From a virus: 31,173 nucleotides of DNA. The notes beneath the pieces are model-generated. The model made no database searches. It was not told the DNA's origin and was given only the letters and a program-made list of their open reading frames with translations. A program made the translations under genes and the position numbers. Location: IMG/VR virus record IMGVR_UViG_3300025102_000162, positions 1 to 31,173 of that record, one strand, 5' to 3'. Shown one piece after another: positions 1-21,444 of this stretch (positions are counted from its first letter, which is position 1; the number at the start of each line of letters is the position of its first letter).

Positions 1-449
1 ACTGATTGCTGTGTTACACCTTTGGTAGCAGAGTTAGAAGCCATATTATCTTCATCTAAAAATAATGTTGTATTAAGTGCAGTACCTGCTTCGTTAATAA
101 CTGTATCTACTCTATCGTTTAAATCTTCTATGTGTTGTTGAACTGGTGACATACGAACAACAGAACCTGAAGCATGTGATAATCCTGATGAAGCTGCTGA
201 ACCTGTTAAGTATCTATTTCCTACACTACCAACATCTAATGTTTTAGTTCCTGAATTAACACCTGTAACTAAAATAACTTCTCTGTTAGTTGCACTATCA
301 GGGTTAATTATTAAATAACAAGAAGCAGTAAGAGTATTAGAAGCTGAATCTGTTACTGAATTTACAGTTAATGTTGTATCAGATGCACCAATAGTACCTG
401 TTAAGGTTGTCTCAAAAGCATTTAATAACTTAGTTTCTTGTGCTGTCAT
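1..449 (-). CDS. Fibre- or tail-appendage-like protein, N-terminal part (partial)
   Basis: Minus-strand reading frame that starts at an ATG two bases beyond the stop of the propeller tail gene and runs off the left edge (about 149 residues visible). It begins MTAQETKLLNAFETTLTG. It has a beta-rich stretch (TLTVNSV, YLIINP, REVILVTGV, TKTLDVG) and then a helical segment (QQHIEDLNDRVDTVINEAG). The REVILV-TKTL unit resembles a stretch of the 300-aa adaptor upstream (EIMLVT-RTLTVARG), so both may share one small beta domain. Being the last visible gene of the morphogenesis operon fits a fibre or other tail appendage. The receptor-binding end lies outside the window, so the role is inferred from position and domain style. 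Confidence 0.6.
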   Translation of the reverse strand, partial: MTAQETKLLNAFETTLTGTIGASDTTLTVNSVTDSASNTLTASCYLIINPDSATNREVILVTGVNSGTKTLDVGSVGNRYLTGSAASSGLSHASGSVVRMSPVQQHIEDLNDRVDTVINEAGTALNTTLFLDEDNMASNSATKGVTQQS

Positions 450-450
450 T

Positions 451-2367
451 CTATCCTAATCTACCTACTCCTAATAGTTCTATTCCTAATCCTACTCCAG
501 ATGTTGAAGTTTGTACTACTTTACTACCTCTAAATCTTACTAAACAAAACATTGTTACAGAACCTCTAGGGCTTATCTCCTCAATAGGACTGCTAACATT
601 TTCTATTATACCTCTTAATAATGTATCTGGTCTGAATATCTCTAATTGCACATTCTTACCTTCTTTGTTACGCAGCGCCTGGTACACTAAATCTCCTTGA
701 CCGTTTATTTTTAATCGTTTTCTATTCGGTCTTTCTACTTGGTCCGATATGTTTATAGGCATATCTACTACTAAGTCATTAACTAATTGGAAACCCCTAA
801 TAGCAAATGACAGAAGTTCTGGTGATTGTGTAACATCATCTGTGTTTAATTCTATTTTTCCTGCAATCCATCTACCATCAACAAGTGTCATAACTTCTTC
901 GTCTCCACCTGTACCAGAAAATATAGATACTTGTTCTGACCAGGTAGCTGCAGTAGGACTATTTATATCTGCAGCAATAGTAGAACTAAATAATTTAACT
1001 GAACCAGAACTAACAACATTAGTATTTAATTTAGCTCCAACCCATTGTTTTTTCTCTGATGTAAAAAAATCTGCAAGTGGTGTAATAACATAACCTGTTG
1101 ATACATAGTTTGTACTTTCTCTGTAAAGTCCTCCACCTGATACAGTTGCAAATAATCTATCAGCAAATACTGATATGCTTTGCACTACTCCACTTTCTGC
1201 AAATTCTAAATCTCTAGCTATACCACCTGTTGGTAGATAATATCGCCACAGATTTGTCTTACTTGCACTATCAACTATACCTACATAGATACTATCTCTT
1301 GTAGATATAATTTTGTATGGTGCTTGATTTAAAGTATTAGAACCACTACCCCATTGTTTAATTAACTGTGCATTTACAAGTACATATAAATTATTAGCAT
1401 TAGTTATTTCAGCTCTATATAATCTACCAATCTTTCCACTAGCTGTGTTCTGATATGTACCATAAAATATAAAACCTTGTGCTGCATCTATAGCATTAGG
1501 TACTTCACCTTCTATAAATGTTTGACCTTTAAGTGTAAGTGATGATGATTCATCAGTAAAAGAATATATATATCCATCTGATGCTGCACCTAATACAACA
1601 GCTCCACCATCTGTTAAGTCTGTCCACTCTGTACCAGTAGGTAATGTTTTCATAGTAGTAGGATTGCTGCTATCTGTTACCTGGTATAAATCACCAGCAG
1701 TATCACTAGCAACTATTCTGCCTTTCATAGACCATATCTTACTAAATGTTTTGTGACTGTTATGTGTTGTGTAAGTTGATGCACCAGTTCTTTTGTATAT
1801 AACACCGTTTGCAACTATGTATAATTGTGTTCCTAGTACAGCTAAACCTGTTATTGCATTACCAGCACTTGGTGCAGTTTCAGATACAACTGTTATAGAT
1901 GTTGCAGTAGGTGTGTCTATTCTTTTAAGAACATCACTATCAGCAAAGAATATAGAACCACTCATTTCTTCCATATATAAATTTGTATTTGTAGAACTAG
2001 ACAACTCTGATGTGTCATGTAATAAAGATACTTTATATTCTTGACCTACTTGTTTACCACTAAATACATCTATGCCTTTACTATCCCAGAATCTTTGGAA
2101 ATCATTTTCTCCTGCATTCCTTCTATGTGCTTTATCTAAACCACTACCTCCAGCAAAATCTGTCCTGGAAAATATCTGACCAAACTCCTGTTGAAAATCC
2201 TCTGGTGTTTCTGATGTCTGTATAGCTTGTGCCTGGAGTGGAGCTGTGTTTATATTAAGCTGCCGTCCTGGACCAACAGCAAATCTAAGAAACAAATCGT
2301 CTAGGTTAGCTTCAAATCCTTGTGACTCTGGTGCATTAGTGTTAGCTGGTGAAGGTAATACTGACAT
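451..2367 (-). CDS. Beta-propeller-like tail protein
   Basis: 638 aa. After a polar N-terminus (about residues 1-110) the middle holds at least six repeats of the type xxGxLYIVxxGVIYK (for example GLAVLGTQLYIVANGVIYKR, GYIYSF, IGRLYRA, SIYVGIVD..LWRYYL, DRLFATVSGGGLYR), which looks like a beta-propeller. The C-terminus (NRKRLKINGQGDL ... QLEIFRP, RGSVTMFCLVRFRG) is a separate beta-rich domain. It follows the adaptor gene with a TAATG overlap, and the fibre-like gene follows it. The size and position match the nozzle/tail-hub slot of podoviruses (functionally like T7 gp12), but I see no clear sequence match to that family. Structural tail protein is well supported; the exact part of the tail is inference. 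Confidence 0.65.
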   Translation of the reverse strand: MSVLPSPANTNAPESQGFEANLDDLFLRFAVGPGRQLNINTAPLQAQAIQTSETPEDFQQEFGQIFSRTDFAGGSGLDKAHRRNAGENDFQRFWDSKGIDVFSGKQVGQEYKVSLLHDTSELSSSTNTNLYMEEMSGSIFFADSDVLKRIDTPTATSITVVSETAPSAGNAITGLAVLGTQLYIVANGVIYKRTGASTYTTHNSHKTFSKIWSMKGRIVASDTAGDLYQVTDSSNPTTMKTLPTGTEWTDLTDGGAVVLGAASDGYIYSFTDESSSLTLKGQTFIEGEVPNAIDAAQGFIFYGTYQNTASGKIGRLYRAEITNANNLYVLVNAQLIKQWGSGSNTLNQAPYKIISTRDSIYVGIVDSASKTNLWRYYLPTGGIARDLEFAESGVVQSISVFADRLFATVSGGGLYRESTNYVSTGYVITPLADFFTSEKKQWVGAKLNTNVVSSGSVKLFSSTIAADINSPTAATWSEQVSIFSGTGGDEEVMTLVDGRWIAGKIELNTDDVTQSPELLSFAIRGFQLVNDLVVDMPINISDQVERPNRKRLKINGQGDLVYQALRNKEGKNVQLEIFRPDTLLRGIIENVSSPIEEISPRGSVTMFCLVRFRGSKVVQTSTSGVGLGIELLGVGRLG

Positions 2368-3269
2368 TATCCACTATAATTTATATTCATAATTGATACT
2401 GGTGCTGGATATAGAGAACGCAAATTACCTCTAGCTTCATCTATCAACAATGACCTAAGTCTAAGTAGTGCATTTCTAAGTCTTTCTCCTGAACCTACTG
2501 GATAACTTTCTGCTGCTAATTTCTCTGTAATAAATTCTTGTGTTGAAGCATCTATATCTGTAGCACCTATAATATCTGCTACTGCACCAACCATAACTAT
2601 TTGGTGGTACTCATCTTGTAACAAACATGCTGTACTTAAATCATCTGTTTCTGCACTAGGCATAACAAATTTTCTTTTAACTACAAGATATACAGTTTTA
2701 CCGTTACTTGTATTGTAAAACTGTACTGCTGCGTTTGTACTTGATGGTGGAAAATCTCTAAGAAGTTCTATACCAGCTGTAGTGTATTGACTACCAGTAG
2801 AGTTTTGTACATAAGATGTCATCACTTCTACTGTAGATGCTGGCACTTCTTGATATGTACTGTTGGCAGTTACAGTAGTGTTAGTTACATTATATAAACT
2901 TGGATATAATCTAACAATGTTATCTGCTACTGCATCAAAAACAGATTTACGTGGAAACGTAGGGTTTACAAAAATATTATCTTTATCTGAATGTGCAGCT
3001 GCAGTTGTTCCTGCATATCCTCTTGCTACTGTTAATGTTCTAGTAGAAGTATTAGCTGCAGTGACTAACATTATCTCCTGGTTTATTTCTATTAAGGCAC
3101 CAGAACCTAATAAGTTTTCTTCTTCAGATGAAAACAATCCTGATTCATAAGTTACTGAAGTAACTGAACTATTTATGGCTCCATCTAAACGAGAAAACGC
3201 AGACAAATCGTCTGGCTTGTTTAAAAAATCTCTATATATTCTATCTACGAGTGTGCTTACTGCTGCCAT
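2367..3269 (-). CDS. Head-tail adaptor / tail tubular-like structural protein
   Basis: 300 aa, directly after the capsid gene, with a good Shine-Dalgarno (GGAGG) before the ATG. The N-terminus is helical (TLVDRIYRDFLNKPDD), then comes a beta unit (GSGALIEINQEIMLVTA ... RTLTVARGYAGTTAAAHSD), then a second beta region (TVEVMTSYVQNS, VYLVVKRKFV), and a helical C-terminus (ERLRNALLRLRSLLIDEARG). Gene order capsid-this-propeller protein places it where adaptors or tail tubular A proteins sit in short-tailed phages. No family is recognised for certain. Its stop overlaps the next start as TAATG, implying coupled translation with the tail gene. Confidence 0.6.
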   Translation of the reverse strand: MAAVSTLVDRIYRDFLNKPDDLSAFSRLDGAINSSVTSVTYESGLFSSEEENLLGSGALIEINQEIMLVTAANTSTRTLTVARGYAGTTAAAHSDKDNIFVNPTFPRKSVFDAVADNIVRLYPSLYNVTNTTVTANSTYQEVPASTVEVMTSYVQNSTGSQYTTAGIELLRDFPPSSTNAAVQFYNTSNGKTVYLVVKRKFVMPSAETDDLSTACLLQDEYHQIVMVGAVADIIGATDIDASTQEFITEKLAAESYPVGSGERLRNALLRLRSLLIDEARGNLRSLYPAPVSIMNINYSG

Positions 3270-3285
3270 ATATCCTCCATATTAC

Positions 3286-3313
3286 TAGAGGGAGAAGTAT
3301 TTATCTCCCTCTA
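3286..3313 (-). terminator. Perfect hairpin between capsid and adaptor genes (attenuating terminator or RNA stabiliser)
   Basis: TAGAGGGAGA and TCTCCCTCTA form a perfect 10-bp stem with an 8-nt loop, in the 68-bp gap after the capsid stop. Read on the minus strand it is followed by GTAATAT, not a real U-tract, and then the GGAGG ribosome site of the next gene. It is therefore more likely a partial terminator or a block to 3' exonuclease that keeps capsid mRNA abundant relative to tail mRNA. Confidence 0.65.
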
Positions 3314-3322
3314 ATAAATATA

Positions 3323-3352
3323 CTATCTTACTTCGTATTAGGAAGTAGATAG
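3323..3352 (-). other. Second, imperfect hairpin around the capsid stop codon
   Basis: CTATCTTACTTC and GAAGTAGATAG pair with one bulged base, leaving a 7-nt loop that contains the capsid TAA stop. With the 10-bp stem 10 nt further on, the capsid message ends in two tandem hairpins. Probably a 3'-end stability element. Confidence 0.4.
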
Positions 3353-4276
3353 AGATGTAATTTTGCCGTGGAATTGCTCTGGACCGTACTCTAATCCGAC
3401 CTCTCCATAGATTTGGAACTTATAAGCTGAACCAGTTTGTGCAAGTGGTTCTGCAAAGAAGTGTCCTTTTCCTGGAATGTCTAAGAATACTGGCTTACAA
3501 AACGATAAGTCAGCAATAATAATATCTTCAGCAGGAAGGTGTCTATCATAAACAATACCAACTTCTCCGAAGTCAGTTTCTATTGTCATGATGTTAACAC
3601 CACCAACATTTCTATCTCTAGGAGCGAGTGATAACGCACTTCCATAGATAGATGATAGTTTTTGCTTTTGGAAAGCATTAGCAAAAATTACTGGTGTCTC
3701 AAAAGGAGCGCCAGCATCTGCCATCTTCTTTAAGCAAGCATCTACTTTTGCTTGGTCAAGAGCAGCATTACCGCCTGCTACTTCGTTAGTAGCGATAGCA
3801 GCTAGCATACCTCTTGATTTTCTTGCTGTTGTTACATTAGTGTCTGCAACATAAGCACCTTGTAAGAAAGAGAACTCTATGTCTCTAGCTGCTCTCTTCA
3901 TAGCCATGTCTAATTGGAAAGCCAATTCATCTTGAACTGGTTGGTCTCCCAATATAGATTGACCAGCAAGGTTTCCTGTTGCTGCTTGTTTTGTATATGA
4001 TACGTGAACACCATATTGCATAATCTGAGTCACGTTATATACTTCGCTTCTGCTTCTTTCTGCAAAGGTTGCGTCTGCACCTTCTACTACTACTGTTTGA
4101 GCAGCAGCTGCATTGTCAACTGTTTGCCAGGAGAACTGTTTAGAGGTAACTGATTTACCTCCAGTCATCCCACCAATAGCGGAAAGAAACGGTGTATCGT
4201 TTGGAGTTACATTAAATAACTCACCGACGTAATTAGGTAAATCGTAAGAATCACCTAGTCCGCTTACTGCACCCAT
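3338..4276 (-). CDS. Major capsid protein (SU10/DUF5309-like, HK97 fold)
   Basis: 312 aa. The N-terminus (DLPNYVGELFNVTPNDTPFLSAIGG) followed by SKQFSWQTVD and an E-loop-like region (VVVEGADATFAERSRSEVYNVTQI) is the usual pattern of the SU10-type major capsid family. Then come a spine-like helix (LAFQLDMAMKRAARDIEFSFLQG), a central A-domain region (PVIFANAFQKQKLSSIYG) and a typical end (GHFFAEPLAQTGSAYKFQIY GEVGLEYGPEQFHGKI). The scaffold gene lies directly upstream and the adaptor downstream. Strong Shine-Dalgarno (AAAGGAGA). No N-terminal delta domain, so a separate scaffold is expected and is present. High confidence in function, fairly high in subfamily. Confidence 0.9.
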   Translation of the reverse strand: MGAVSGLGDSYDLPNYVGELFNVTPNDTPFLSAIGGMTGGKSVTSKQFSWQTVDNAAAAQTVVVEGADATFAERSRSEVYNVTQIMQYGVHVSYTKQAATGNLAGQSILGDQPVQDELAFQLDMAMKRAARDIEFSFLQGAYVADTNVTTARKSRGMLAAIATNEVAGGNAALDQAKVDACLKKMADAGAPFETPVIFANAFQKQKLSSIYGSALSLAPRDRNVGGVNIMTIETDFGEVGIVYDRHLPAEDIIIADLSFCKPVFLDIPGKGHFFAEPLAQTGSAYKFQIYGEVGLEYGPEQFHGKITSLSTS

Positions 4277-4290
4277 TTAAATCTCCTTTA

Positions 4291-4755
4291 CTATTTTTCT
4301 CGGGTTAAATTTCTTAATTTATTTGCTTTGAGATTAGCGCTAGTTTGCCAATCACCATCTTGCTGCGCTTGTGCAATCTGGTCTTCTAAGCCAACTGGCT
4401 CTACTGGAGTTGATGCTTCAATTACAGTGTCAAGATTTTGTTGACTTGTTACAACTCTTGCTTTTTGAGCAGCTTGCGGGTCTTCTTGGGTAGGACTTTC
4501 TGAGGTCCAGCCGTAGTTTTCTTCAGCAAATTGCTTTATAGCATCTGATTGTAACTCACCTTTATACAAGTCTTTCAATGCTTTACCTTGTCCAGAGTCT
4601 GGGTCAAAACCTGCATCTTGGATAGCTTTACCCATTTGCACAGATTTAAATTCTTTCTCTACACTTTCAAGTTCTTTAATGCGTTCACGCATTGACTTGA
4701 TAGCATTGTTATCTTGTGTTTCTTCTACTGTATTATCTTCCATATTTTCTTCCAT
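4291..4755 (-). CDS. Capsid scaffolding protein
   Basis: 154 aa, acidic and mostly helical: N-terminal polar stretch (MEENMEDNTVEETQDNN), a charged probable coiled coil (SMRERIKELESVEKEFKSVQ), a middle part with GFDPDSGQGKALKDLYKGEL, and a basic helical tail (DWQTSANLKANKLRNLTREK) like those that bind the coat shell. The motif GFDPDSGQGKAL is common in scaffolds of phages with this capsid type. It sits 15 bp before the major capsid gene with Shine-Dalgarno AGGAGATAAA. Position, size and composition all support the call. Confidence 0.8.
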   Translation of the reverse strand: MEENMEDNTVEETQDNNAIKSMRERIKELESVEKEFKSVQMGKAIQDAGFDPDSGQGKALKDLYKGELQSDAIKQFAEENYGWTSESPTQEDPQAAQKARVVTSQQNLDTVIEASTPVEPVGLEDQIAQAQQDGDWQTSANLKANKLRNLTREK

Positions 4756-4970
4756 TTTATCTCCTACTCCAAGTGTTGGTATTAACTACATCATCCTTGG
4801 GTTAATGATGCGATACGCGACAAATAATAATTAAACAACAATGAGAATTGCCAGCCACTCCAGACTGTTGAGATACTAGACGAATTGTAATACGCAGCTT
4901 ACACGTCAGCTATAAGCTGGAAGGTGCAGCATCCATTTATATTCGGAGACGTCCGCAATCCGATACTTTA
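4756..4970 (-). other. Probable structured 5' leader of the capsid operon
   Basis: About 215 bp with no credible ORF on either strand, but with several stems: CATCAT(4789-4794)/ATGATG(4805-4810), CAGCTTA(4895-4901)/TAAGCTG(4913-4919) and TCGGA/TCCGA around 4943-4963. It is less AT-rich than the flanks. It lies between a terminator (4991-5018) and the scaffold start, so on the minus strand it would be the untranslated leader of scaffold-capsid mRNA. No known RNA family recognised; no tRNA cloverleaf. Confidence 0.4.
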
Positions 4971-4976
4971 ATTATA
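4971..4976 (-). promoter_or_regulatory. Candidate -10 box of a capsid-operon promoter
   Basis: TATAAT on the minus strand, just downstream of the bidirectional terminator and upstream of the scaffold leader. A convincing -35 box at 17 nt is not visible. The logic is that the terminator and the inserted plus-strand cassette would cut the late transcript, so scaffold and capsid need their own start. Confidence 0.35.
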
Positions 4977-4990
4977 TACTACAAAAACAA

Positions 4991-5018
4991 AATAGTGGGT
5001 TTTTACACCCACTATTTT
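4991..5018. terminator. Bidirectional rho-independent terminator
   Basis: AATAGTGGGT and ACCCACTATT form a perfect 10-bp stem (12 with flanking A-T pairs) and a 6-nt loop. It is flanked by A-rich sequence on the left and TTTTTA on the right, so it works as a terminator on both strands. It bounds the left side of the plus-strand cassette and would stop late transcripts coming from the right before scaffold. Confidence 0.8.
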
Positions 5019-5097
5019 TACGTACACGAAAGGAAGGTTAAACTAATCTATTGCTAGAGAAGAATCCTTTAATAAATTATAACACAAAAAAAAAGAT

Positions 5098-5127
5098 GTA
5101 ACCTTTTTTAAAGTAGAAGAGTCTAAG
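5098..5127 (+). promoter_or_regulatory. Bipartite phage promoter, copy F (moron promoter)
   Basis: GTAACC, 16 nt, AGTCTAA, followed by GTAATGTA: the same element that precedes early genes at 22519, 23118, 23382, 24111 and 25159. The -10-like hexamer is TCTAAG. A start about 7 nt further leaves a short leader with AAGGAAAGG before the ATG at 5155. Confidence 0.65.
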
Positions 5128-5154
5128 TAATGTAAGCAAAGGAAAGGAAAACAA

Positions 5155-5280
5155 ATGTACGGAGCTTTTGAAACAGAAGAAGAGTACGATGCTTTTGTTA
5201 AAAACGGTGATTGGTTTATAGATTCAGAATCACCAGAGTATTGGAAACAATTAATAGACAATGCCAAGGAGGGTAAATAA
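5155..5280 (+). CDS. Small acidic hypothetical protein (41 aa) of the inserted cassette
   Basis: Starts MYGAFETEEEYDAFVKNGDW and ends DNAKEGK. Preceded by AAGGAAAGG at good distance and by the conserved early promoter. Acidic, rich in Glu/Asp and Trp/Tyr, no membrane segment. Its stop TAA abuts the next ATG, so the two genes form a tight bicistronic unit running against the late operon. Small acidic proteins in such cassettes are often regulators or inhibitors of host proteins, but nothing here identifies the function. Confidence 0.7.
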   Translation: MYGAFETEEEYDAFVKNGDWFIDSESPEYWKQLIDNAKEGK

Positions 5281-5481
5281 ATGTACGGAGAAGTTATTTA
5301 TGTTGTAACAACTTCAGCAGAAGGTTATGTTACAAACAGACGTGCTTTTATGCACGAGTGGTTTGCTAAAAGAGTACAACAAGGAAACCTAACTATATTT
5401 AGAGAACACAATCCAAAAGTTATTATTAGAAAATATAGTTGGAGAACTTTACCTAAATCTATTAGCGAAGTAACAATATAA
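5281..5481 (+). CDS. Small basic hypothetical protein (66 aa) of the inserted cassette
   Basis: Begins directly after the stop of the 41-aa gene, with GGAGGGT just upstream as ribosome site. Begins MYGEVIYVVTTSAEGYVTNR, then a helix with Trp/Phe (AFMHEWFAKRVQQGN) and a basic strand (KVIIRKYSWRTLPKS). Probably a small alpha/beta fold. Both cassette proteins begin MYG. A strong terminator follows 13 bp after the stop. Function unknown; it may bind the acidic partner encoded before it. Confidence 0.75.
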   Translation: MYGEVIYVVTTSAEGYVTNRRAFMHEWFAKRVQQGNLTIFREHNPKVIIRKYSWRTLPKSISEVTI

Positions 5482-5493
5482 TTTAAAGCAAAG

Positions 5494-5528
5494 CCCTAAC
5501 TGTTTGTTTGTTTCCAGTTGGGGTTTTT
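5494..5528 (+). terminator. Terminator of the inserted cassette
   Basis: CCCTAACTG (5494-5502) and CAGTTGGGG (5515-5523) pair over 9 bp with one G-T wobble and a 12-nt T/G-rich loop, followed by TTTTTG. It ends transcription of the two plus-strand genes two bases before the stop of the convergent 275-aa gene. On the minus strand it could also weaken late read-through (CTTTGCTTT follows). Confidence 0.75.
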
Positions 5529-5529
5529 G

Positions 5530-6357
5530 CTATTGTTCCTGAAGTCCAGTAACTCTAGCACCTCTTCTTGCGTAACCAACTTGTGGTGTAAACATAGATG
5601 CTTCTTCTGCTTCTAACCTGCTAATGTTTTCTAACACGTCTGGGTCCTGGAATACAACAGCTTGTGTAAACTCTTCTAATGATAACTCTTCTGCTTCTGT
5701 GTCTTGTCTGGTTTGTATATCTCTTAATCTAGGTAAGTCTCTTTGTGCTGCAGTATAAAGCTGCCTTGCTTGTTGTTGAGTAAGACCAGCTGCTCTAAGG
5801 TTTTCTGCTTCTGTTCTTGTAATAGTAAACCCAGCTCTTGCAGCTTCACCACCAATTTGTGCTGCAGTTATATTACCTTCTATTAATGCTTCTCCTATTG
5901 ATGGGTCTAATGCTCCCATGAATATAGCTTCTGGAGTTAAATCTACATTGTAATTAGTAGAGAAAAAGTTTTGAACTCCTTGAATATTATCTACAATACC
6001 TTCGTAAGCTGCACTAACTCTTTGTTGAAATTCTATTGCAGATACTTTACCTTCTAATAAACCTACAAACCTATCAGCCAACAATACCCTAGATGTTTGT
6101 TCTGGTATGCCATACTCTTGAAGTGTACCAATGTAAGATTGTTCTAATGCTTTATAAGTATTTTCATCGTATCTAACTTGACCAGTAGTTTCATTATAAT
6201 TACCAGGAAACTCTGCTTTGTACACATCTGTCTGTCTAACTGCACGAATAGCAGTAACGGGGTTATTACTTTTTGCCCATTCAGCTGCAAATAAATCAAG
6301 TATCTGTGGTGATAACTGTGGATATAATGTTTGTGCTTCTTCTAAGTAAGTTGCCAT
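5530..6357 (-). CDS. Probable internal virion / minor structural protein (275 aa)
   Basis: 275 aa, almost all helical and Gln/Glu/Ala-rich. It opens with MATYLEEAQTLYPQLSPQIL and then ...AIRAVRQTDVYKAEFPGN, a pattern of a Trp/Tyr-rich helix followed by (T)xxYKxxFPG seen in large virion proteins of related phages. Further on are QRVSAAYEGIVDNIQG and a C-terminal helical region with AGLTQQQARQLYTAAQRDLPRL. Overlaps the 646-aa gene by one base (TAATG-type), and it is the last of the large-protein block before the scaffold and capsid genes. Structural role inferred from the operon. Confidence 0.6.
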   Translation of the reverse strand: MATYLEEAQTLYPQLSPQILDLFAAEWAKSNNPVTAIRAVRQTDVYKAEFPGNYNETTGQVRYDENTYKALEQSYIGTLQEYGIPEQTSRVLLADRFVGLLEGKVSAIEFQQRVSAAYEGIVDNIQGVQNFFSTNYNVDLTPEAIFMGALDPSIGEALIEGNITAAQIGGEAARAGFTITRTEAENLRAAGLTQQQARQLYTAAQRDLPRLRDIQTRQDTEAEELSLEEFTQAVVFQDPDVLENISRLEAEEASMFTPQVGYARRGARVTGLQEQ

Positions 6358-8297
6358 TATTCGTTAACTCCTAATCTTGTTTCTACAGAACCAGCAGCTC
6401 CACCTAATGCTTGTTGCAGCGCTTGTGTTGCTTCTACTGTAACTTGTCCTATGTCTTGTTCTAATCCTTTAGTTCTAAGTAATTCTTGACCAGCTTCATA
6501 ATCATTAGTAGCTACCATATCTTGCCACCAACCTTGTGTTTCGTCAGCTTCTTGTCCCCATGTTTGTCTAGTTAATCCTCTCCAAGGTGTAACAATATCA
6601 TCGTATGTTAATTCTGGATTAGTATATTTAGGAAACAAAGCTAACCTACTTGTCTTTAAACTTTCTATTAATGCTTGTTCGTAATCTGGATTGTTCCTTA
6701 ACCTACCAGCTTTCTCTGCTATCTCTGTATCTGTTAATCCTCCAAAGACTGGTCCAAGATATTGAGTGTACAGTTTCTGAATCCTATCTTCTTGTTCTGC
6801 ACTTCTGTTTAATCCACCAAGTCCAGCAGTATTAATGTATTGTGTAAAGTCTGAATCTCTTACACCATTTCTAAATGGGTCAGCAAACAAAGCTAACTGT
6901 TCTGTTGTATATGATTCGGACCAAGAACCAGTAACCCACTTGTTAGCTATCCAGGTAGATAGTGCATCTGGTGCGCCTAACTCCTGGTTACTTTCTGTAT
7001 CATAACCACCAGATACTCCAGCTGCTTTTAATGCAGATGCTACTTGTATCTTATAATCATTTGCTTTTTGTGTAGCTGTGCCTGGGTCTTTGTAATACTC
7101 TCTTAACCAATTACGTTCTGATTCTGTATGTTCTTTGTACCAATTAGTACCAAACCATTCAGCTTCTGTAACTTCTCTATTTTCTAATGCAGCTTCTGCT
7201 AATAAAGAAACTGAATCTGGGTCTAATATCCAGGGTTTAATAGTTGCTTCTGTTGATATAGTTTCTACAAAAGAAGTAAAAGGATGTAAAGGTACACCGT
7301 CTGGACCGTTACGTGGAAGGTCTGCACTGTTACCTGCAACTACTCCCATTAAATCTAAATCATCATTACTAAATTTTGCATTAATATAATACTCTTGACC
7401 TGGAGTAACAAAGCCAGCTTTAATTGGGTCATTGTATCTTACTTCATAAAACATAAATAAGGTGCTGCCTTCGTATAGTTCACCTGCACCTGGTACTGCA
7501 TATCTTAAAAAGAGTTGTCCTTCTACATCTACTAGGTCTGCACCATCTGGAATATTATTAAATACATTTTTATTAGGATTAATAACTTGTTCTTGTGGAC
7601 CACCATCATCACCATTGTCATCATCATCATTGTCATCATCATCATCACCATTGTCAGTTAAATCTTTTGGTTCGGGGTCACTAGGTGTACCAGGAGTAAA
7701 TCCCATTTCTTCTACAGTTGTTTGTGGCACATCAAATGATGCTGGCACTCCAAGTTCTACTGCAACTTGTGCCTCTGCTATAACATCTTTAGGGTCTCTA
7801 CCAGGTGCAAAGTCAAAAGTAATGCCTGTATATACTGGGTCTTTTGCTCCTTTAGAATCTTTAATAACTACTTCTGCTGGTTTATTAGGTGCAAAATCAA
7901 AGGTTACATCATTAGGACCAGCAAATTGTTTTACATTTTCTTCAATGTTACTTATTTTTTTTGACTCAATTTGTGCTGTTTCGTATAAATCTATTTCAGT
8001 AAAACCTTCTGGTGTTTCACTTCTGTATGACTCAAACAATCTATCTGCTATAGATAAAGCAGTATTAATTTCTTCTTGTGTAAATACTGTTGCTCTGCCC
8101 TGTGGTTGGTTATATGGCAAACCTAAAGTAGCTCCAGGAGTAGGTTCAGCTCCTACAAAATCTCCTTTTAATTGTTTATTAATATCGTTTTTAGAAATAG
8201 CTTCTTTAACAGTACCTGTAGTTTTACCAGATTCTAGTTTTTTTGCTATGTAGTAGAGTGCTAAATCACCTACGTATTTTTCACCTGTATATGCCAT
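6357..8297 (-). CDS. Probable internal virion protein with Asp-rich linker (646 aa)
   Basis: Two halves are separated by a nearly pure Asp/Asn/Gly stretch (about residues 214-233). The N-terminal half contains a doubled motif TFDFAP (VTFDFAPNKPAEVVIKD and ITFDFAPGRDPKDVI), a possible short internal duplication. The C-terminal half is helical and contains EAEWFGTNWYKEHTESERNWLREYYKDPGTA, a W-x4-W / R-W / DP-x-TA arrangement seen in large structural proteins of actinophages. There is no signal peptide or membrane helix. Position between the 638- and 275-aa genes suggests a virion protein, perhaps ejected with the DNA. No enzyme motif seen. Confidence 0.6.
   Translation of the reverse strand: MAYTGEKYVGDLALYYIAKKLESGKTTGTVKEAISKNDINKQLKGDFVGAEPTPGATLGLPYNQPQGRATVFTQEEINTALSIADRLFESYRSETPEGFTEIDLYETAQIESKKISNIEENVKQFAGPNDVTFDFAPNKPAEVVIKDSKGAKDPVYTGITFDFAPGRDPKDVIAEAQVAVELGVPASFDVPQTTVEEMGFTPGTPSDPEPKDLTDNGDDDDDNDDDDNGDDGGPQEQVINPNKNVFNNIPDGADLVDVEGQLFLRYAVPGAGELYEGSTLFMFYEVRYNDPIKAGFVTPGQEYYINAKFSNDDLDLMGVVAGNSADLPRNGPDGVPLHPFTSFVETISTEATIKPWILDPDSVSLLAEAALENREVTEAEWFGTNWYKEHTESERNWLREYYKDPGTATQKANDYKIQVASALKAAGVSGGYDTESNQELGAPDALSTWIANKWVTGSWSESYTTEQLALFADPFRNGVRDSDFTQYINTAGLGGLNRSAEQEDRIQKLYTQYLGPVFGGLTDTEIAEKAGRLRNNPDYEQALIESLKTSRLALFPKYTNPELTYDDIVTPWRGLTRQTWGQEADETQGWWQDMVATNDYEAGQELLRTKGLEQDIGQVTVEATQALQQALGGAAGSVETRLGVNE
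7601..7656. repeat. CAT/ATG-type trinucleotide repeat encoding the Asp-rich linker
   Basis: Near-perfect run of (CAT/CAC/TGT)-type triplets on the plus strand, giving a stretch of about 15 Asp with a few Asn and Gly in the 646-aa protein. Such a microsatellite can change length by slippage in steps of one residue without breaking the frame. Confidence 0.8.
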
Positions 8298-8331
8298 TTA
8301 CTTCTTTCCTTAATTTATTGTACTTCATTTA

Positions 8332-10248
8332 CTACTTATTGTCTGAACTTATACCACGTATTCCTTTAAATACATTTTCATAAAATGGTTTTGTTAACTT
8401 ATATGTAATAGAATACTTATCGTCTATTTGTCCAAAGTTGTCAAAGAAATCAACATCTTTATCAATAGCTTTAGTAGCAGCACTGGTTACATCTGCAACA
8501 AGAACTAATGTTTCATAGAATGCTAAAGCTGCTGCAGCTGGTCCAGTAAGACTAGCGGCACCATACTTAGTTCCAATCTTTGCTAATCCTTTTTCAATAA
8601 CTTCTTGACCTACATCTAACTTACTTAATCCTTTAAATAATTTTGTAGCAAATTTAGGATTTGTTTTTACTGCATTGTCTGCAACTTTAAGAGCTTCTGG
8701 TGTATGATTCTTCACAAATGTTTGACGCACCTGTTGTACTATAGGTTTCTTTAATACTTTTTTAACTTCTGGTTCTTCTATTGTAAGTCTAAAATTTTGA
8801 CGGTCTAATGGTTTATCAGTTACAGCATCTACAAACTTTGTTAAATCTTCATCTGTAGTTTTAGGACCTTTCCATATATTTAATTTTTCATCAGTATTAA
8901 CTAAACTTAAAACTGTTAAAGGTACTAATCCTTTTTTTCTATCGCTATACACAAATAAATCTACATTTAAATCATCTACTATTTTTGCTATATTTGCAGC
9001 AGGTGTCATGTGGTATCTACCAACTTTATTAAATGATATGTCTGGTGCTTTAAGTAATTTAGAATCATCTGCAAACTCTAAAGGTGTCTGTCTTAATATG
9101 GCTTCTTCAAAAGTCCCTTGAAGTGGTGTTCTATAACCTACATCTAATTTTTTATTAATGTATTTATCTACAGGTATATTTGCTGTGTAGTCATATTGTT
9201 GTGGTAAAAATAATTGTCTATTCATTCCTCCTGGTAATACAGTGCTTAGTGTTCTCATGTAATCACCTATAGCAAATATTGCACGTTCTTCTTTTTCTAT
9301 AATTTTTGGATTTATTCTCCAAAAAAAATCTGCATCTCTTTTTAAATATGAGTTATATCTAGTATTTATAAAATCTTTAAGATTATCTTGCATAGATTCC
9401 AAGTTGTTCATAGTTATGCTTTTATTTCTTGTAACTGGTATATTTTCCATATCATCAAATATATAAAATTTAAATCCAGGTTTTATTTCTTTTGTTAATT
9501 TGTCTATTGTTTTTAATTCTTCTTTAGATAAATTTGTTAAAGGGTTTAATATATCTGTATATACTGCAGTTTCTACAACAACACTTCTAGTTAAAGTTCC
9601 TACTTTTGCCCATGTCATGTGTCCTATAAGAGTTCTACCTATATCAAATACTTCTTGTTGCGCTCCAACTATGTTAGAAAATTTACCATCTTGTAATTGT
9701 TTAGCAATATCTAAAGGTGTTGCATTAGGTTGACTAGATATTTTTTTTAAATTATCTATTGCTTGGTCTATCGTAAATGATATACCTCCATTAGCTTGTT
9801 CAAACAAACTTAACCCATGTGCATCTACACCAGAGTCAGCTATTTTATTTACCGTTCCAGATATTCCTTCTTCTAATTCTATTAAATCTTTTAATACTTT
9901 ACCTATATTTTTTTCTGCATCTAAAGGGTTTTTTTGTACAAACGCATCTGTTAAAAAATCTTCTGTTTTTTCTGCTGTATCAAAATGTGTTCTGCCTAAA
10001 ACTCCAATACCATCTAGTAAATCATCTATAATTTTTTTATCAAATACTTTAGGGTCTTCTCCTAAAAATTTAATTAAGTTGTCATAATTTGTTAATAAAT
10101 TTTTTAAGTCTTTTATTTCATATTTGTTACTGTATATTATTCCTGGGTCAAAATTACGTAAATAATTTATAGACCTTCTTGATACATCTAAAGGAGCTGC
10201 TACTGCAGTTGTTGTCGCACCAAGTTCAACAAGTTCTTCTTGTTCCAT
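8332..10248 (-). CDS. Large virion protein, probably ejected (638 aa)
   Basis: 638 aa, Lys/Asp-rich, mainly helical (for example YEIKDLKNLLTNYDNLIKFL, EDFLTDAFVQKNPLD, KNIGKVLKDLIELEEGI). Near the C-terminus is a small-residue hydrophobic stretch (AASLTGPAAAALAFYETLVL VADV, about residues 573-596) that could insert in a membrane, as expected for a protein that helps DNA cross the envelope. It follows a 35-aa gene by three bases and precedes the 646-aa gene by 34 bp. No family recognised; the role is inferred from size, hydrophobic segment and location. Confidence 0.55.
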   Translation of the reverse strand: MEQEELVELGATTTAVAAPLDVSRRSINYLRNFDPGIIYSNKYEIKDLKNLLTNYDNLIKFLGEDPKVFDKKIIDDLLDGIGVLGRTHFDTAEKTEDFLTDAFVQKNPLDAEKNIGKVLKDLIELEEGISGTVNKIADSGVDAHGLSLFEQANGGISFTIDQAIDNLKKISSQPNATPLDIAKQLQDGKFSNIVGAQQEVFDIGRTLIGHMTWAKVGTLTRSVVVETAVYTDILNPLTNLSKEELKTIDKLTKEIKPGFKFYIFDDMENIPVTRNKSITMNNLESMQDNLKDFINTRYNSYLKRDADFFWRINPKIIEKEERAIFAIGDYMRTLSTVLPGGMNRQLFLPQQYDYTANIPVDKYINKKLDVGYRTPLQGTFEEAILRQTPLEFADDSKLLKAPDISFNKVGRYHMTPAANIAKIVDDLNVDLFVYSDRKKGLVPLTVLSLVNTDEKLNIWKGPKTTDEDLTKFVDAVTDKPLDRQNFRLTIEEPEVKKVLKKPIVQQVRQTFVKNHTPEALKVADNAVKTNPKFATKLFKGLSKLDVGQEVIEKGLAKIGTKYGAASLTGPAAAALAFYETLVLVADVTSAATKAIDKDVDFFDNFGQIDDKYSITYKLTKPFYENVFKGIRGISSDNK

Positions 10249-10250
10249 GG

Positions 10251-10358
10251 TTATTTTTTACCAGTAAATATCTTTTTATATCTATTTCTTTTTGATGCGT
10301 GGTTAAGAAAATATAATCTTTTTTGTTCTACATTAGACATTTGTTCTATAAGTTTCAT
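10251..10358 (-). CDS. Small basic protein (35 aa) between transglycosylase and 638-aa genes
   Basis: The ATG overlaps the stop of the transglycosylase gene as ATGA, and the stop TAA lies two bases before the next ATG. The peptide begins MKLIEQMSNVEQKRLYFLNH and ends in a basic tail (RNRYKKIFTGKK). It exactly fills what would otherwise be a 106-bp gap in a tightly packed operon, which is the main reason to call it real. Helical N-terminus and positively charged C-terminus; function unknown. Confidence 0.65.
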   Translation of the reverse strand: MKLIEQMSNVEQKRLYFLNHASKRNRYKKIFTGKK

Positions 10359-11068
10359 TCTATAGCATCCAATACATCTTGCATTGTTATATCATCTTCT
10401 CTGTTAATACCTGTTTTAACTTGTGCTACTTTTTCACTTCCTGCTTTATCTGGTACTTGTGCTTCAAACTCTAGGTTTCTAGGGACTAACGAAGATATTA
10501 ATTGAGCAGCATACTTTTGTATTGGGTCAGTAGTAGGTGTCATTCCATCATCTTGTGTTTGCATAATAGGTTCTATGCTTTGTTGTTCTGATTGACTTAT
10601 ATAACTATCTACTGTTTCATTTGATGCAGATTCTAAATTATTAGAATATTTTTCCATAACACTTGTTACATAATCTCCTACAGCTGGACCAAAACTTTCT
10701 AAGTTTCCTATGCCACTTACTGATTCAATACCTAAACCTTTTGCTTTGTTAGCGGCACCTGGTCCTGCATACCAAGCAACTGCTACTAAATCCCAACTTC
10801 CATATTTGTTAAAATATTCTGTAAACTTATATGCAGCAACTATGTCTTGCATTTCTGGTATTCGCCAATCTGCACCTTTATAACCAGCTTGTTCTGCCCA
10901 CTTATCCCAGTTAACATCTAGTATTCCATAAGCACCTAATGCTTGTACTTGCATTGGCTGCCCATCGTAACCTAACATTGTTGTTGGTTCATGCTTTAGT
11001 AAATAATTACCACCTGCATTTTCTTGTTCTTTTATAGATTCCATAAATGCTACTAATTCTTGACTCAT
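10355..11068 (-). CDS. Virion-associated lytic transglycosylase (SLT/lysozyme-like)
   Basis: 237 aa. The N-terminal 120 residues form a soluble lytic transglycosylase-like domain: MESIKEQENAGGNY with the probable catalytic Glu16 (family pattern QES..NY), then ALGAYGILDVNWDKWAEQAG (the GAxG-x-Q/L-x3-W region), then DIVAAYKFTEYFNKYGSWDL VAVAWYAGPGAANKA (typical AxxYNxGxG segment). The last 110 residues are low-complexity and polar, without a membrane segment. It should cut the glycan strands of host murein. As it lies inside the virion-protein block and away from the holin, local cell-wall digestion during DNA entry is more likely than lysis. Confidence 0.85.
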   Translation of the reverse strand: MSQELVAFMESIKEQENAGGNYLLKHEPTTMLGYDGQPMQVQALGAYGILDVNWDKWAEQAGYKGADWRIPEMQDIVAAYKFTEYFNKYGSWDLVAVAWYAGPGAANKAKGLGIESVSGIGNLESFGPAVGDYVTSVMEKYSNNLESASNETVDSYISQSEQQSIEPIMQTQDDGMTPTTDPIQKYAAQLISSLVPRNLEFEAQVPDKAGSEKVAQVKTGINREDDITMQDVLDAIE

Positions 11069-11069
11069 A

Positions 11070-12101
11070 TTATTGTGGTCTTCCTGTCCTAGCGGAGATG
11101 CTATTAAGAATAGCAGCCCTAGTATTACGTCCCGAATAATTTTCTCCTAACCTAGCTTTTTCGTTTTCAATCAACCCATCAAATTTTTGTCTCATTCTAC
11201 TTTCTGGGTCTATTTGTGAAAGTCCTTCTTCATCTATTGTTTGTTGTACATTTTCTGCAGCATAGTTTCCATATTCACCTGCCATTAAATCATCACCAGT
11301 AAATGTAGCTGGTTCTTGTGCAGCATCTGTAAGTTCTTGACTTTGTTTAAATGCTGCTTCTGATTGTTTGTACAACTCATTAGATAATAATTTAAGTTCG
11401 TATGCACTAGGTTCTCTATTTAATTCTCTTGCATATAGTGATTTAACTTGTTGTGCATTAGTTGCTGGGTCTGGTGGTAAAAATACATCGTCATCTGGAA
11501 TTGTAGGTACTGGATTAGCTACGTATTCTTCTAATACATTTCTCCATGCAGCACCTGTTTGTTTTTCATATTCAGTAACACCACCCATGTTTGCTCTTCT
11601 TAATACTCTGCTAAATGCAGATTGTGTAGGTGCGTCCCATTCTCCTGGAATAAACCCGTCACCAATAGTAAGCAACTTAGCATTAACTAAATCTGCTTGT
11701 ATTCCTGCTATCTCTTCTACTTCTAATCCAGCAAATAAATTAACTAAATCATTTTCTGTATAAAAATCTGTTGCACTTTCTCTAGGTGGTAAATAATTAG
11801 CTGGTACTCCAATGATTGCATCTTGGTTTCCAAATAAACCAGTTTGTTCTCCAGCTGCAAACAAAGCTGCACTATCTGCATTAACGTCTAATAAATCTTT
11901 ACCAGATATTGCTGTTTCTATTACGTATTCTGGAATACCTGCAGCTAACAAATATTTAGATGCTTCATCTATTGTGTTAGATGATAGTATGTTTATTCTA
12001 TCATCTGATGTAATGCCTATTTTATTTTGACCAGCAGTAGCACCTTCGTTAATACTAACTATCATTTGTTCTACTCTGCTAAAAAAATCATCAACTGTCA
12101 T
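11070..12101 (-). CDS. Probable internal virion protein with PG-binding-like repeat (343 aa)
   Basis: Acidic, helical. Residues about 125-180 (AGIQADLVNAKLLTIGDGFI followed by PGEWDAPTQSAFSRVLRRAN) match the style of the GxWDxxTxxAFxxVLxxAN unit common in large structural proteins of actinophages, where it recalls peptidoglycan-binding (PGBD) folds. Further on SLYARELNREPSAYELKLLS is a conserved-looking helix pair (YxxxLxRxPxxxEL). Its start overlaps the end of the 1556-aa gene by 11 bp; the transglycosylase follows directly. Likely a partner of the transglycosylase in the ejected complex (inference). Confidence 0.6.
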   Translation of the reverse strand: MTVDDFFSRVEQMIVSINEGATAGQNKIGITSDDRINILSSNTIDEASKYLLAAGIPEYVIETAISGKDLLDVNADSAALFAAGEQTGLFGNQDAIIGVPANYLPPRESATDFYTENDLVNLFAGLEVEEIAGIQADLVNAKLLTIGDGFIPGEWDAPTQSAFSRVLRRANMGGVTEYEKQTGAAWRNVLEEYVANPVPTIPDDDVFLPPDPATNAQQVKSLYARELNREPSAYELKLLSNELYKQSEAAFKQSQELTDAAQEPATFTGDDLMAGEYGNYAAENVQQTIDEEGLSQIDPESRMRQKFDGLIENEKARLGENYSGRNTRAAILNSISARTGRPQ

Positions 12102-15100
12102 ATAATCCTCTTATTAATTCTATATCTTGTTCCGCAGCTTGTAACTCTCTTTCAAATATTTCTTTTGCTAAAGGTGCAAACTCTGGGTTCGTTACCAGTA
12201 TAGCTTTCATTTTGTCTCTTAACGCATTTCTATAAGGTGCTAATTTATTTGCACTTCTAAAAGAAGTATCTCTATATCCTAAGTTTTTAGTATCAGCTAT
12301 AACTCTATCTCTAAATTTTAAATATTTTTGTAAACCTATTGCTGCTGAATTGTTAGCAATACTTGGTTCTAAAACATAAGTTACTGGATTAATCCAAGTA
12401 TATAATTCATCTATTAAATCATCTATCTCTGGTTTAGTAGGTGAATAATCTATGCTTCTACCATACCCTGGGTACTTCATAGCTATTTCTGCTTTTTTAT
12501 TTAGTTTTGCTTGTGAGGCTACTTTGTCATTTCTTGTTAACAAACCATTAGTTTTTATAAAGTTTTCATATTCTATATTTCCTAACAATATATTTTTAGC
12601 TTGTACCCATTGTTCTGGAGACCTAGGAACTCTATCACCACTTATTAGCTGGCTGTAATACTGTTCATATAAAAACTCTGAATCAGTTTCATCAATTAAA
12701 AATGCGTAAGTTAAATCAAACTTATCTACAAGTTCAGGATTGTTTCTTTCCCATGTAGCACCATCTGCAGTAACTGGTCTTTTCTTAACTGTTGATGTTC
12801 TACTTGTTGCAATAGTAACTGGGTCAAAACCAAATCTTTCTGTAAATACTTTTACTGCAGTAGAACTATCTGGTGTTGCATTAGATATATTTCTGTATTC
12901 CTCTGCAAGAGTTTCAAATAAATAAAATTGTCCAGTGTTATCTGATATTGCATACTTAGGACTTACCGCACCAGATGGACCTAATGCTTGTGAGATAGAA
13001 CGAATAATAAATATTTTTCTAGCATAATCAGCTGCTAACTCAATACCATCACTAGCACCTTGTGGGTTACTATCATCTATTTGTCCTGCATAAACTAATG
13101 CTTTATAGACATCAATAGTTGTATTAGAGAATGCTCTTTTAGCTTGACCGTTAGCAGTACCTACATTAAATGCAGTACGAAGTTTTTTAAACCAAGAAGG
13201 TTCTGGTACTAATGATTGAATAAATTGTCCAGGGTCAGCAACACTTGGCGGTGCAAAACCACCAAATATAATTTCTTCTTCAAATTTACCTGGTCTTAAA
13301 AATTCAAACTTAGCATTTAATATTGCTGCTGGAACAGTTATTGTTGGACCAAAGCCTGGTATAAAACTACCAGCTATATTTAAAGAACTAGCAAATACTG
13401 GTAAATTAACTTTCACTCCGTTTTCTTCTAAATCTTTAAACATATACTTTTTTATTAAACCTTCACCTGGATAACCGAATAGTTCTTCTCCAGTGTTAGG
13501 GTCTTTATAAAAAAATCCTTGTTGTCCTTCTTCATCAAATATTGGATTAGGTTCTCTTGCTGCATCAACTGTTTGTTGTAACCTTCTAATAGGTCTTCCA
13601 AATTCATTTTTAACTAATCTACTCCAGGTAGTAAAGATTTCTAAGTATGCTTCACCGAATGGAAAGATACCTCTTGTTGCATTTCCTAATCTGGTTTTAG
13701 TTGATACATCGTATAATAATTTTTTAGTTTCAGTTAAAGCATGTGCAGATGATATTTTATCTATTATCTCTATATCGTTAACTCCATTTTTAACACCTTT
13801 ATAACCTTCTAATTTTTTTAATATCTTTTTTTCTTTTCCAGTACCTGTAGCAAGACCAGCTTCTTTAGCTTGTTTTAATACCTTGCTTAAAGTTTTTTCA
13901 TCTAAGTGTTGTGCAAAGTCTCCTACTTTTTCCCAATAATGTTTTTTAAATGTTGGCGCTCTTGACATTGTTTTAGTAGGTACAGTCATAAACATATCAA
14001 ACATAGTATCTACTAAGTCATCTAAGTTTCTTGTTTGTTTAGATATAGAATTTTTTAATTCACCTCTTGCTGATTCTGGTAATACTTTTTTATATTTCTT
14101 AACAAAATCTTTACGCAACTTATCTTGATTTTTTCTAAGTTGTGTAGTTATAGATGTGTATTCTTCTGCAGATAACTCACCAGCCCAATATTTTTTAAGG
14201 TCAACATTTTCTAAACCTACAAGTTCTTGTGCAGACATATCTTCATTTGCTAATGCTTTTAATAAATCTTTATTACCATTTTCATCTATCCACTCTCTTG
14301 CAGCTTTAGGAGTTTTATCTATATCGTCTAATACTGTTACAACTTTACCTCCAGTTGTTTGTGCTACACCTGCATTAACATAATGTACAAACTCTTCTGC
14401 TTTTGCTTGACCTAATTTACTAGAGTTACCAGCACCTTTAAAAGCATGACCATCAGCACCAGATACTTTTCTTATGTGCTTATTTAATTGTGTTCCAGTA
14501 GTTTGTGCTTCTTTTATAACTTCATCCAACATCTTTATTCTTTTTGCTGGGTTTTGTTCTAGCTGGACTATAGCAAGTCTTCTTGATAACGGGTCAAACT
14601 TATGTTGCATAAAGTTTCTAAATGTTGCTTCTCCCCATGCTCTAACATTTTCTGACCTGGTTACAGTAGTAAACTCTCCATTACCTCCCCAACCTCTACG
14701 TACAGAACTTGCAGTACCAGCACCGTTTTGTACAGTTTCTAAAAATTGTGCGTTATCTTCAAAAGTTCCCATTAATGTTTTAGCAGATTCTTTTTCTTTA
14801 CCTAATACTCTTGCAATCATTCCAGCGGGATGAGTAATAACATTTGTTACACCAGAAGCCATCATTCTTAATTGTTCTTCTGCAATAACACGAACTGTCC
14901 ATGCTGGTCTTAACAATACAAGTGGTTTAAATAATGAACCATAGTACCAGTCCATAAACCTTGTAACACTTTCAGCGCTTCCACTTGTAGCTATTTTTGA
15001 ACCTATAGCACCAAATTTTTTGTCTAATGTTTTTGCAGCTCTAATAACTTGTGTAGCATTTGGTAAATATATTTCATCAGCTAATTGTGCTGCTGTAAGT

Positions 15101-16761: not shown

Positions 16762-16762
16762 A

Positions 16763-17131
16763 CTAACCCTTTAATAGTTTTGCTAAGAGTGGGTCACCTG
16801 TAATATCAAAAAATTGTTGTATTAATGACTCTGTAGATTCCATAGCTTCTGGCGCTCCAACTCCTGGACCAAAAGGTAATCCGTCTTCTACTGGTCTTAA
16901 TGGTTGGTCAGTTTCAGCAAACACACTACGTTGTAATGCTGCACCTAAATTTTGTCCTGGAGTTTGCGGAGGTATAGGTGGTCCTGTTTCTCCACCTAAA
17001 TTTAGATTTTGTACTTCACTGTTTAATTCTTTAAGAGGTTCTTTTTCACCATAAGTCATTCTTGTTTGGTCAATGTAATTATTAGATGCTGGTTTTACCG
17101 CAGCATTTCTTTTAGTAATTCGGGTTGCCAT
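16763..17131 (-). CDS. Small Pro/Gly-rich structural-operon protein (122 aa)
   Basis: 122 aa. Basic start (MATRITKRNAAVKPASNN), a disordered Pro/Gly-rich middle (GGETGPPIPPQTPGQNLGAA) and a hydrophobic short C-terminal helix (LIQQFFDITGDPLLAKLLKG). It overlaps the 63-aa gene before it by 20 bp in another frame and ends two bases before the start of the giant gene. The shape, disordered with a terminal helix, would suit an assembly helper or a minor virion protein bound to portal or core. No family recognised. Confidence 0.6.
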   Translation of the reverse strand: MATRITKRNAAVKPASNNYIDQTRMTYGEKEPLKELNSEVQNLNLGGETGPPIPPQTPGQNLGAALQRSVFAETDQPLRPVEDGLPFGPGVGAPEAMESTESLIQQFFDITGDPLLAKLLKG

Positions 17132-17303
17132 CTATATCTTCCTCATCTAAATGTATTATTTCAGTTACAGTAAATCTTGATATTATTCTAGGAAACTTAT
17201 TAAATTGTTGTTTTTTTATAAAGTCTTCCATAATGATGTCATCACCATCTTCGTCTAATTCCCATAAACTATTGTGAACTATGTCTTCAAATATTTCGTG
17301 CAT
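17112..17303 (-). CDS. Small acidic hypothetical protein (63 aa)
   Basis: Starts at an ATG overlapping the portal stop (TAATG) and overlaps the next gene by 20 bp. Acidic (LDEDGDDIIMEDF, HLDEEDIDG) with a beta-like middle (RIISRFTVTEIIHL). The coupled start and the operon packing argue for a real gene. No function can be assigned. Confidence 0.6.
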   Translation of the reverse strand: MHEIFEDIVHNSLWELDEDGDDIIMEDFIKKQQFNKFPRIISRFTVTEIIHLDEEDIDGNPNY

Positions 17304-19042: not shown

Positions 19043-19046
19043 AATT

Positions 19047-20942: not shown

Positions 20943-21088
20943 TATTTCTTTTTTTTCTTTTTTTTAGGAAATCCAGCTTTCATGTTTGCATAAGCCTTAG
21001 GACTAATTGTAGAATTTTTCTTTGACCTACTTGTCCCAGCTTTTTTTCTTTTATTTATATTATGATATAAACCTTTTTTAGCTGCCAT
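20942..21088 (-). CDS. Small Lys-rich protein (48 aa) before terL
   Basis: Begins MAAKKGLYHNINKRKKAGTS and ends in MKAGFPKKKKKKK; stop overlaps the TerL start as TAATG. Ribosome site AAGGAGGAAG. The pattern GLYxNIxxRKxAGxSR ... AYxNMxxGFPKKK is a widespread small phage family of unknown role, often near packaging genes. Very basic, so probably binds nucleic acid or an acidic core protein. Good confidence as gene, none for function. Confidence 0.75.
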   Translation of the reverse strand: MAAKKGLYHNINKRKKAGTSRSKKNSTISPKAYANMKAGFPKKKKKKK

Positions 21089-21097
21089 TCTTCCTCC

Positions 21098-21355
21098 TTA
21101 CCATGCTTTGCAAGACCAATATCTTGCTGTTGTTTTATCCTTAGCAGTGCTGCATTTGTGTCTAGCACGAAACGAAGCTCTAGCTCCTGGATTGTTTTTT
21201 CTTATAGCCATGTTGGGGTCACCGAACATAATCTTTTTTACTTTGCCATTAGACATAACAAAGACTTTAGATTTTTTGCGACCATATCCTGGTTCGCCTT
21301 TTCGTATTGCAGAAGGTGAATTTAACTTTACCTTCATTCCCCTATACTCAGCCAC
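21098..21355 (-). CDS. Small basic conserved phage protein (DUF6321-like, 85 aa)
   Basis: GTG start overlapping the stop of the 22-aa gene (TAGTG). Motifs: YRGMKVKLNSPSAIRKGEPG, then KVFVMSNGKVKKIMFGDPNM, then NPGARASFRARHKC, ending TARYWSCKAW. The FGDPNM...NP.AR.SFRARHKC...ARYWSC.W signature is shared with a small family found in marine phages including cyanophages, where it lies among head genes; the DUF6321 label is from memory. Two conserved Cys (HKC, WSC) may bind a metal with His. Probably a virion or packaging helper. Confidence 0.75.
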   Translation of the reverse strand: MAEYRGMKVKLNSPSAIRKGEPGYGRKKSKVFVMSNGKVKKIMFGDPNMAIRKNNPGARASFRARHKCSTAKDKTTARYWSCKAW

Positions 21356-21423
21356 TATTTTCTACGTTTTCTGCTCTTGTTTTTTTTCATACCTTTTTTA
21401 TATGAATAACTTTTACCTGGCAT
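21355..21423 (-). CDS. Very short basic peptide (22 aa), first gene of the late operon
   Basis: Begins MPGKSYSYKKGMKKNKSRK and stops three residues later at TAG, which overlaps the GTG start of the next gene. Strong ribosome site AGGAGGACAA. About half of the residues are Lys or Arg. Very short ORFs of this MPGKSYSYKKG type precede head genes in other phages. The ribosome site and coupling make translation likely; it may mainly serve to deliver ribosomes to the GTG-start gene. Confidence 0.6.
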   Translation of the reverse strand: MPGKSYSYKKGMKKNKSRKRRK

Positions 21424-21432
21424 TTGTCCTCC

Positions 21433-21438: not shown

Positions 21439-21444
21439 TTAATT

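Follow-up and report, generated by a model that had tools for sequence, protein, structure and literature searches.

An optional slot with a fixed shell and exchanged small genes in the late region of phage genomes

Comparison of related phage genomes establishes the existence of a slot in the late region, enclosed by a recognisable shell, along with turnover of the cargo inside it and a cargo gene held in common with an early block. The stretch of DNA in which the slot was analysed, hereafter called the window, consists of all 31,173 bases of the IMG/VR virus record IMGVR_UViG_3300025102_000162; its late genes lie on the minus strand, and its early block occupies about 22.5 to 28.2 kb on the plus strand. 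We consider it likely that the locus is a moron slot, in which a fixed shell receives exchanged accessory genes from the early-gene pool, and that these would be expressed early and probably be directed against the host.

Relatives of the capsid protein in bacterial genomes were actinobacterial in 26 of 27 matches (41-49% identity), and the closest named phage, judged by this protein, is Mycobacterium phage Mendokysei (50%); the host is probably actinobacterial and marine. A phage fragment from a marine low-GC actinobacterial host has been reported (PMC3861242), and a host of this kind is a plausible guess for the window phage.

Organization of the slot

The initial annotation described a cassette of two small genes running against the late operon, which is borne out by the open reading frames (plus strand, inside the minus-strand late region), the promoter element ahead of them and the hairpin on each side (Table 1). 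In the window, the TAA of the first gene directly abuts the ATG of the second, while the two cargo genes of the related locus L004 overlap as ATGA. The interval originally given to the cassette, 5043-5531, stands as far as the plus-strand genes, promoter and terminators are concerned, but its left part, 5043-5081, belongs to a candidate small RNA (sRNA) unit on the minus strand. The 154-aa left neighbour retains its earlier name of scaffold, which fits its position; no family confirms it.

Table 1. Features of the slot and its surroundings in the window
Feature	Position	Strand	Remarks
154-aa scaffold-like gene	4291-4755	-	left neighbour of the slot; the major capsid gene comes after it
Structured leader RNA of the scaffold-capsid unit	4756-4966	-	covariation; adjoins the slot
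-10-like TATAAT of the scaffold-capsid unit	4976-4971	-	kept, with slight variation, whether or not the cassette is present
Left terminator hairpin	4989-5018	-	ends the candidate sRNA; -17 kcal/mol, z -6.3; top pair covaries UA/GC
Candidate sRNA gene	5075-4984	-	GCAA-tetraloop hairpin, invariant ACCUUCCUUUCGUG, terminator; 18/18 shells
-10-like TATAAT of the candidate sRNA	5081-5076	-	TATAAT or TATACT in 18/18 shells
Early-type promoter element TGTAACC-N17-GTCTAA (copy F of the initial annotation)	5097-5126	+	precedes S41
S41, first cargo gene	5155-5280	+	41 aa; homologues in 8 other genomes; pN/pS 0.07-0.29
S66, second cargo gene	5281-5481	+	66 aa; window only; unrelated c71 in its place in L004
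Right terminator hairpin	about 5487-5531	+ (T-run)	-20.5 kcal/mol, z -4.45; conserved in shells
275-aa gene	5530-6357	-	late; right neighbour of the slot

The TGTAACC-N17-GTCTAA element is found in four exact copies in the window, as opposed to none in 100 shuffles, and in five if TGTAACT is allowed (at 5097, 23117, 23381, 24110 and 25158). All of them are on the plus strand and, other than the copy at 5097, all are in the early block ahead of early genes; indeed, the element is restricted to the early strand in all shell-bearing genomes. Its boxes are unlike the sigma-70 consensus, and a promoter scan of the window did not pick it up. A TGTAACC-N-GTCTAA element was also seen upstream of genes in phage contigs without the slot (L105, L107, L108, L113, L116, L124, L133, L148 and L150).

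An E-E-S-K-stop tail carried by the slot copy of the promoter had been taken as a trace of copying from the early block. The letters are present, but GAGTCTAAGTAA is the second promoter box plus the bases downstream of it, and the early-block copies read ESK-stop because the promoter core overlaps gene ends there (e.g., at 24110-24143). Spacers of other shells end in CTTAGGTA, TCTATGTA or ATCACGTA and encode no such tail, which rules out a copied gene end; being promoter core that differs among shells, the tail provides no evidence of copying.

Distribution of the slot and turnover of its cargo

Relatives were collected by searching IMG/VR with the capsid protein, which yielded 61 loci, and more came from scans with the promoter and sRNA patterns. 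Among 53 genomes compared, the slot is present in 18 (the window and 17 relatives) and absent from the same junction in the remaining 35, so that it is an optional module, as had been proposed, rather than a strict constituent of all relatives. Where it is lacking, the late genes on either side are usually separated by 204-264 nt. The exception is L013 (genome G009); this genome has no shell, but the junction of its 275-aa and scaffold genes contains about 300 nt of unrelated inserted sequence, bearing two small ORFs that are oriented like the late genes. Shell-bearers form a single clade in the tree of the 275-aa protein (support 1.0) and are scattered in the capsid/scaffold tree, which places the slot at a module boundary.

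Most of the shell is constant among the 18 genomes, and its cargo varies from zero to four small genes (Table 2). The cargo ORFs are intact and, in most cases, have a purine-rich ribosome-binding site ahead of them. In L202, the cassette promoter and the early promoter of the same genome have only an 11-nt match in common.

Table 2. Contents of the shells
Locus	Cargo	Promoter
Window	S41+S66	
L004	S41+c71	
L009	S41+c122	
L048	S41+c50+c129	
L029, L030	S41+c125+c49+c45	
L032	S41+c69	
L134/L165	S41+c96	
L028, L046	c69 alone	
L039, L115	c106 alone	
L034, L035, L037, L151	no gene	present
L025, L055	no gene	absent
L202 (genome G049)	S41+c130	different, TATAAT-type

Replacement of cargo is best seen between the window and G001, the genome containing L004. 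The two are 99.2% identical over positions 1-5285 and 97.7% identical over 5479-21693, and yet from the end of S41 up to the right terminator their genes bear no relation to each other; the spacers of their promoters differ as well. Such a pair of genomes, 98-99% identical and differing in one cargo gene, constitutes a clean natural experiment.

Counterparts of the cargo were found in several other places. The c96 cassette gene of L165 (genome G052) is 78.4% identical in DNA sequence, over 315 nt, to a gene in the early block of G033, a relative that lacks the cassette, and the match extends past the stop codon; c71, which matches the G033 gene at E 3e-6, is apparently a remote member of that family. 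The c122-130 family is also present behind a TGTAACC promoter in L150, in the (early) block of another phage, and in inverted orientation among the structural genes of a different phage type (L156 and L157, the latter also with the c50 partner). The c125 family has kept 32 invariant positions across different contexts, and S41 has distant kin in yet another phage (L166/L167). Sequence relationships of this kind show that early blocks and the slot have genes in common, whichever way these moved. At about 2700-3540, L156 and L157 possess an inverted cassette of their own among the structural genes, in which the c125 family is accompanied by other small genes.

Judged by its pN/pS against the eight homologues, S41 is a real gene under strong purifying selection. 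S66 had no homologue in viral_contigs, nor in a set of about 31,000 ORFs from the collected loci, and profile comparison gave no match to the c69 family. The cargo proteins tested had no match in Pfam, PHROGs, PADLOC or NCBIfam, including models of defence and anti-defence proteins, and the c125 family had none in annotated phages or among PDB sequences. The predicted structure of S66 (pLDDT 69, pTM 0.43, one model of five) yielded no Foldseek match at E <= 0.001, and that of the c125 family, with a pLDDT of 44, was uninformative.

A candidate small RNA in the shell

The previously unreported candidate sRNA gene within the shell would specify an RNA of about 90 nt after the -10-like box, ending in the terminator at 5018-4989. 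Its GCAA-tetraloop hairpin displays compensatory changes, in addition to the covarying top pair of the terminator, and its folding energy is 3.9-4.4 s.d. below that of shuffles. It is retained in shells without cargo or promoter, and it was also detected in the cassette-less L200, where conservation starts at about the -10. A covariance model had no match in non-shell relatives or in the other phages tested, and comparison with Rfam gave nothing at the gathering threshold, the weak matches being taken as chance. As far as can be predicted from the alignment, the gene has a promoter of its own, a conserved structure and a terminator.

The invariant CCUUCCUUUCGUG of this RNA is complementary to the early-gene ribosome-binding site AAAGGAAGG, the complement of the invariant stretch being AAAGGAAGGT. 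In 15 carrier genomes, GGAAGG occurs in the ribosome-binding region of 81 of 201 early genes (40%) and 3 of 165 late genes (2%), compared with 5/110 early (5%) and 0/98 late genes in seven non-carriers, with gene starts assigned by a simple script that itself favours purine-rich sites; these counts are not independent, since the carriers all fall into a single clade of the terminase tree and the comparison is confounded by shared ancestry. The early sites also contain GGAAGG in carriers without the TGTAAC promoter (G049, G043 and G019). The seed is predicted to pair more strongly with early starts than does the 16S anti-Shine-Dalgarno, for which the generally known sequence was used; relative to mononucleotide shuffles, the seed gives z -2.7 to -6.0 at early starts and, in carriers, -1.6 to +0.6 at late ones. 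Part of the seed is also predicted to pair with the RNA's own 5′ end. The cargo genes mostly have variant ribosome-binding sites, namely AAAGGAAAGG, AAAGAAAGG and AAAAGGAG.

Interpretation of the slot

In the explanation that we favour, an early-regulon promoter on the plus strand and a terminator at each end would make up a fixed shell between two late transcription units, holding up to four small accessory genes that phages exchange, probably through recombination within the conserved flanks. The cargo would be drawn from the same pool of genes as the early blocks of these phages and, since the promoter element is shared with the early block, would most likely be transcribed together with it, the terminators insulating it from the late genes. 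The proteins most likely act on host defences or other host functions, as small, diverse and rapidly swapped genes behind an early-type promoter would suggest. The analogy with known phage and archaeal virus loci (see below) makes a role against the host or its defences our best guess, with the balance roughly even. Counting against this explanation are the different promoter over the G049 cargo, the dissimilarity of the promoter boxes to sigma-70, the lack of family matches and the G+C content close to that of the genome.

The constancy of the sRNA gene could also mean that the conserved function of the locus lies in the minus-strand RNA, transcribed from its own promoter, and that the plus-strand cargo is a tolerated passenger. 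Its seed, which resembles the 16S anti-Shine-Dalgarno with one extra U, would pair through CCUUCCUUUCGUG with the AAGGAAGG sites of early mRNAs and silence the whole early regulon, late genes avoiding such sites, so that the RNA would act as a translational early-to-late switch from which the cargo could escape. We regard this as possible though rather unlikely. Its presence in every shell, even where cargo or promoter is gone, and in L200, the covarying hairpin, the enrichment of GGAAGG ahead of early genes in carriers, including those with no TGTAAC promoter, and the superiority of its pairing over that of the anti-Shine-Dalgarno all speak for it; however, the common ancestry of the carriers weakens the counts, late timing is a guess, the seed may be partly occupied by the 5′ end, and the maintenance of cargo under selection would be left unexplained. 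If this were nevertheless true, the early-to-late switch would operate at the level of translation via a dedicated variant of the ribosome-binding site, and could be tested with reporters without phage culture.

That diverse and unrelated genes meet at one site and match no defence-related model would suit cargo made of infection-time modulators unconnected with defence, such as those for superinfection exclusion or tuning of host metabolism, exchanged because hosts differ. Nothing speaks specifically against such roles, but an early-type promoter is at least as fitting for host takeover or anti-defence, by analogy with PMC11065993; we regard this reading, too, as possible though rather unlikely. 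The cargo might also be neutral or decaying sequence, trapped where late modules recombine. The slot does lie at a module boundary, S66 is unique and empty shells survive, but the low pN/pS of S41, the invariant positions of the c125 family and the intact ORFs, mostly with ribosome-binding sites, render this highly improbable.

Comparison with known systems

Morons are defined as genes inserted where relatives have two adjoining genes, equipped with a promoter and a terminator of their own, the autonomous expression of which benefits the phage or the host (quoted in PMC4378225); a base composition unlike that of the neighbours is usual, though not required (PMC4378225). Like the morons of tailed phages described there, the slot places small genes, absent in relatives, between two conserved genes, with a promoter and a terminator recognisable by sequence. 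Unlike them, it has room for several genes, with rotating cargo in a fixed shell, employs the phage's own early-regulon promoter and contains a candidate RNA gene, and its base composition hardly departs from that of the genome (G+C 0.327 in the cassette versus 0.348 in the window). Mu-like Pseudomonas phages have regions of genomic plasticity, anti-CRISPR loci among them (PMC4378225), that are similarly fixed sites: their genomes are otherwise syntenic, and a site may be empty or contain one or several small variable genes. The likeness is one of layout, and the slot differs in being inverted with respect to the late genes.

In archaeal viruses, anti-defence genes were recognised by a shared early promoter and tested for activity (PMC11065993). 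Those genes, like the cargo, are small, dissimilar and united by one conserved early regulatory sequence, but there the promoters and viruses are archaeal and the activity was tested, whereas the slot is known from its sequence. The phage antisense RNAs c4 (P1/P7) and sar (P22) control a single target, ant (PMC12197685). The candidate sRNA resembles them in that it, too, would be a phage RNA and is predicted to base-pair close to where translation of phage mRNAs begins; unlike them, it would hit a ribosome-binding-site motif common to many early genes, and it has no match in Rfam. The fixed promoter and terminators provide a sequence handle for harvesting the rapidly swapped accessory genes of uncultured phages.

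Leader RNA and other observations

The leader RNA adjoining the slot (about 200 nt, 4756-4976, minus strand) is conserved in relatives whether or not they have the cassette. Across 35 sequences, a search for helices revealed stacked covarying ones, eight in all with 45 pairs, three of them crossing others. Paired cells amount to 95.9%, compared with 38-45% in slid controls, and double changes to 112, compared with a mean of 36 in shuffles, although the structure was selected on the alignment used for counting, which somewhat favours it. Its minimum free energy is no better than that of shuffles (z 0.43), and there is no Rfam match. In one of the crossing helices (columns 208-212 with 235-239), a hairpin loop pairs just 5′ of the scaffold ribosome-binding site, an arrangement that suggests translational control of scaffold and capsid.

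Elsewhere in the window, the 638-aa late gene (about 9000-9750) forms a divergent patch that is 64-89% identical to its counterpart in the sister genome G001, and the edge of the early block, near 21.5-22.3 kb, is also divergent between the two.
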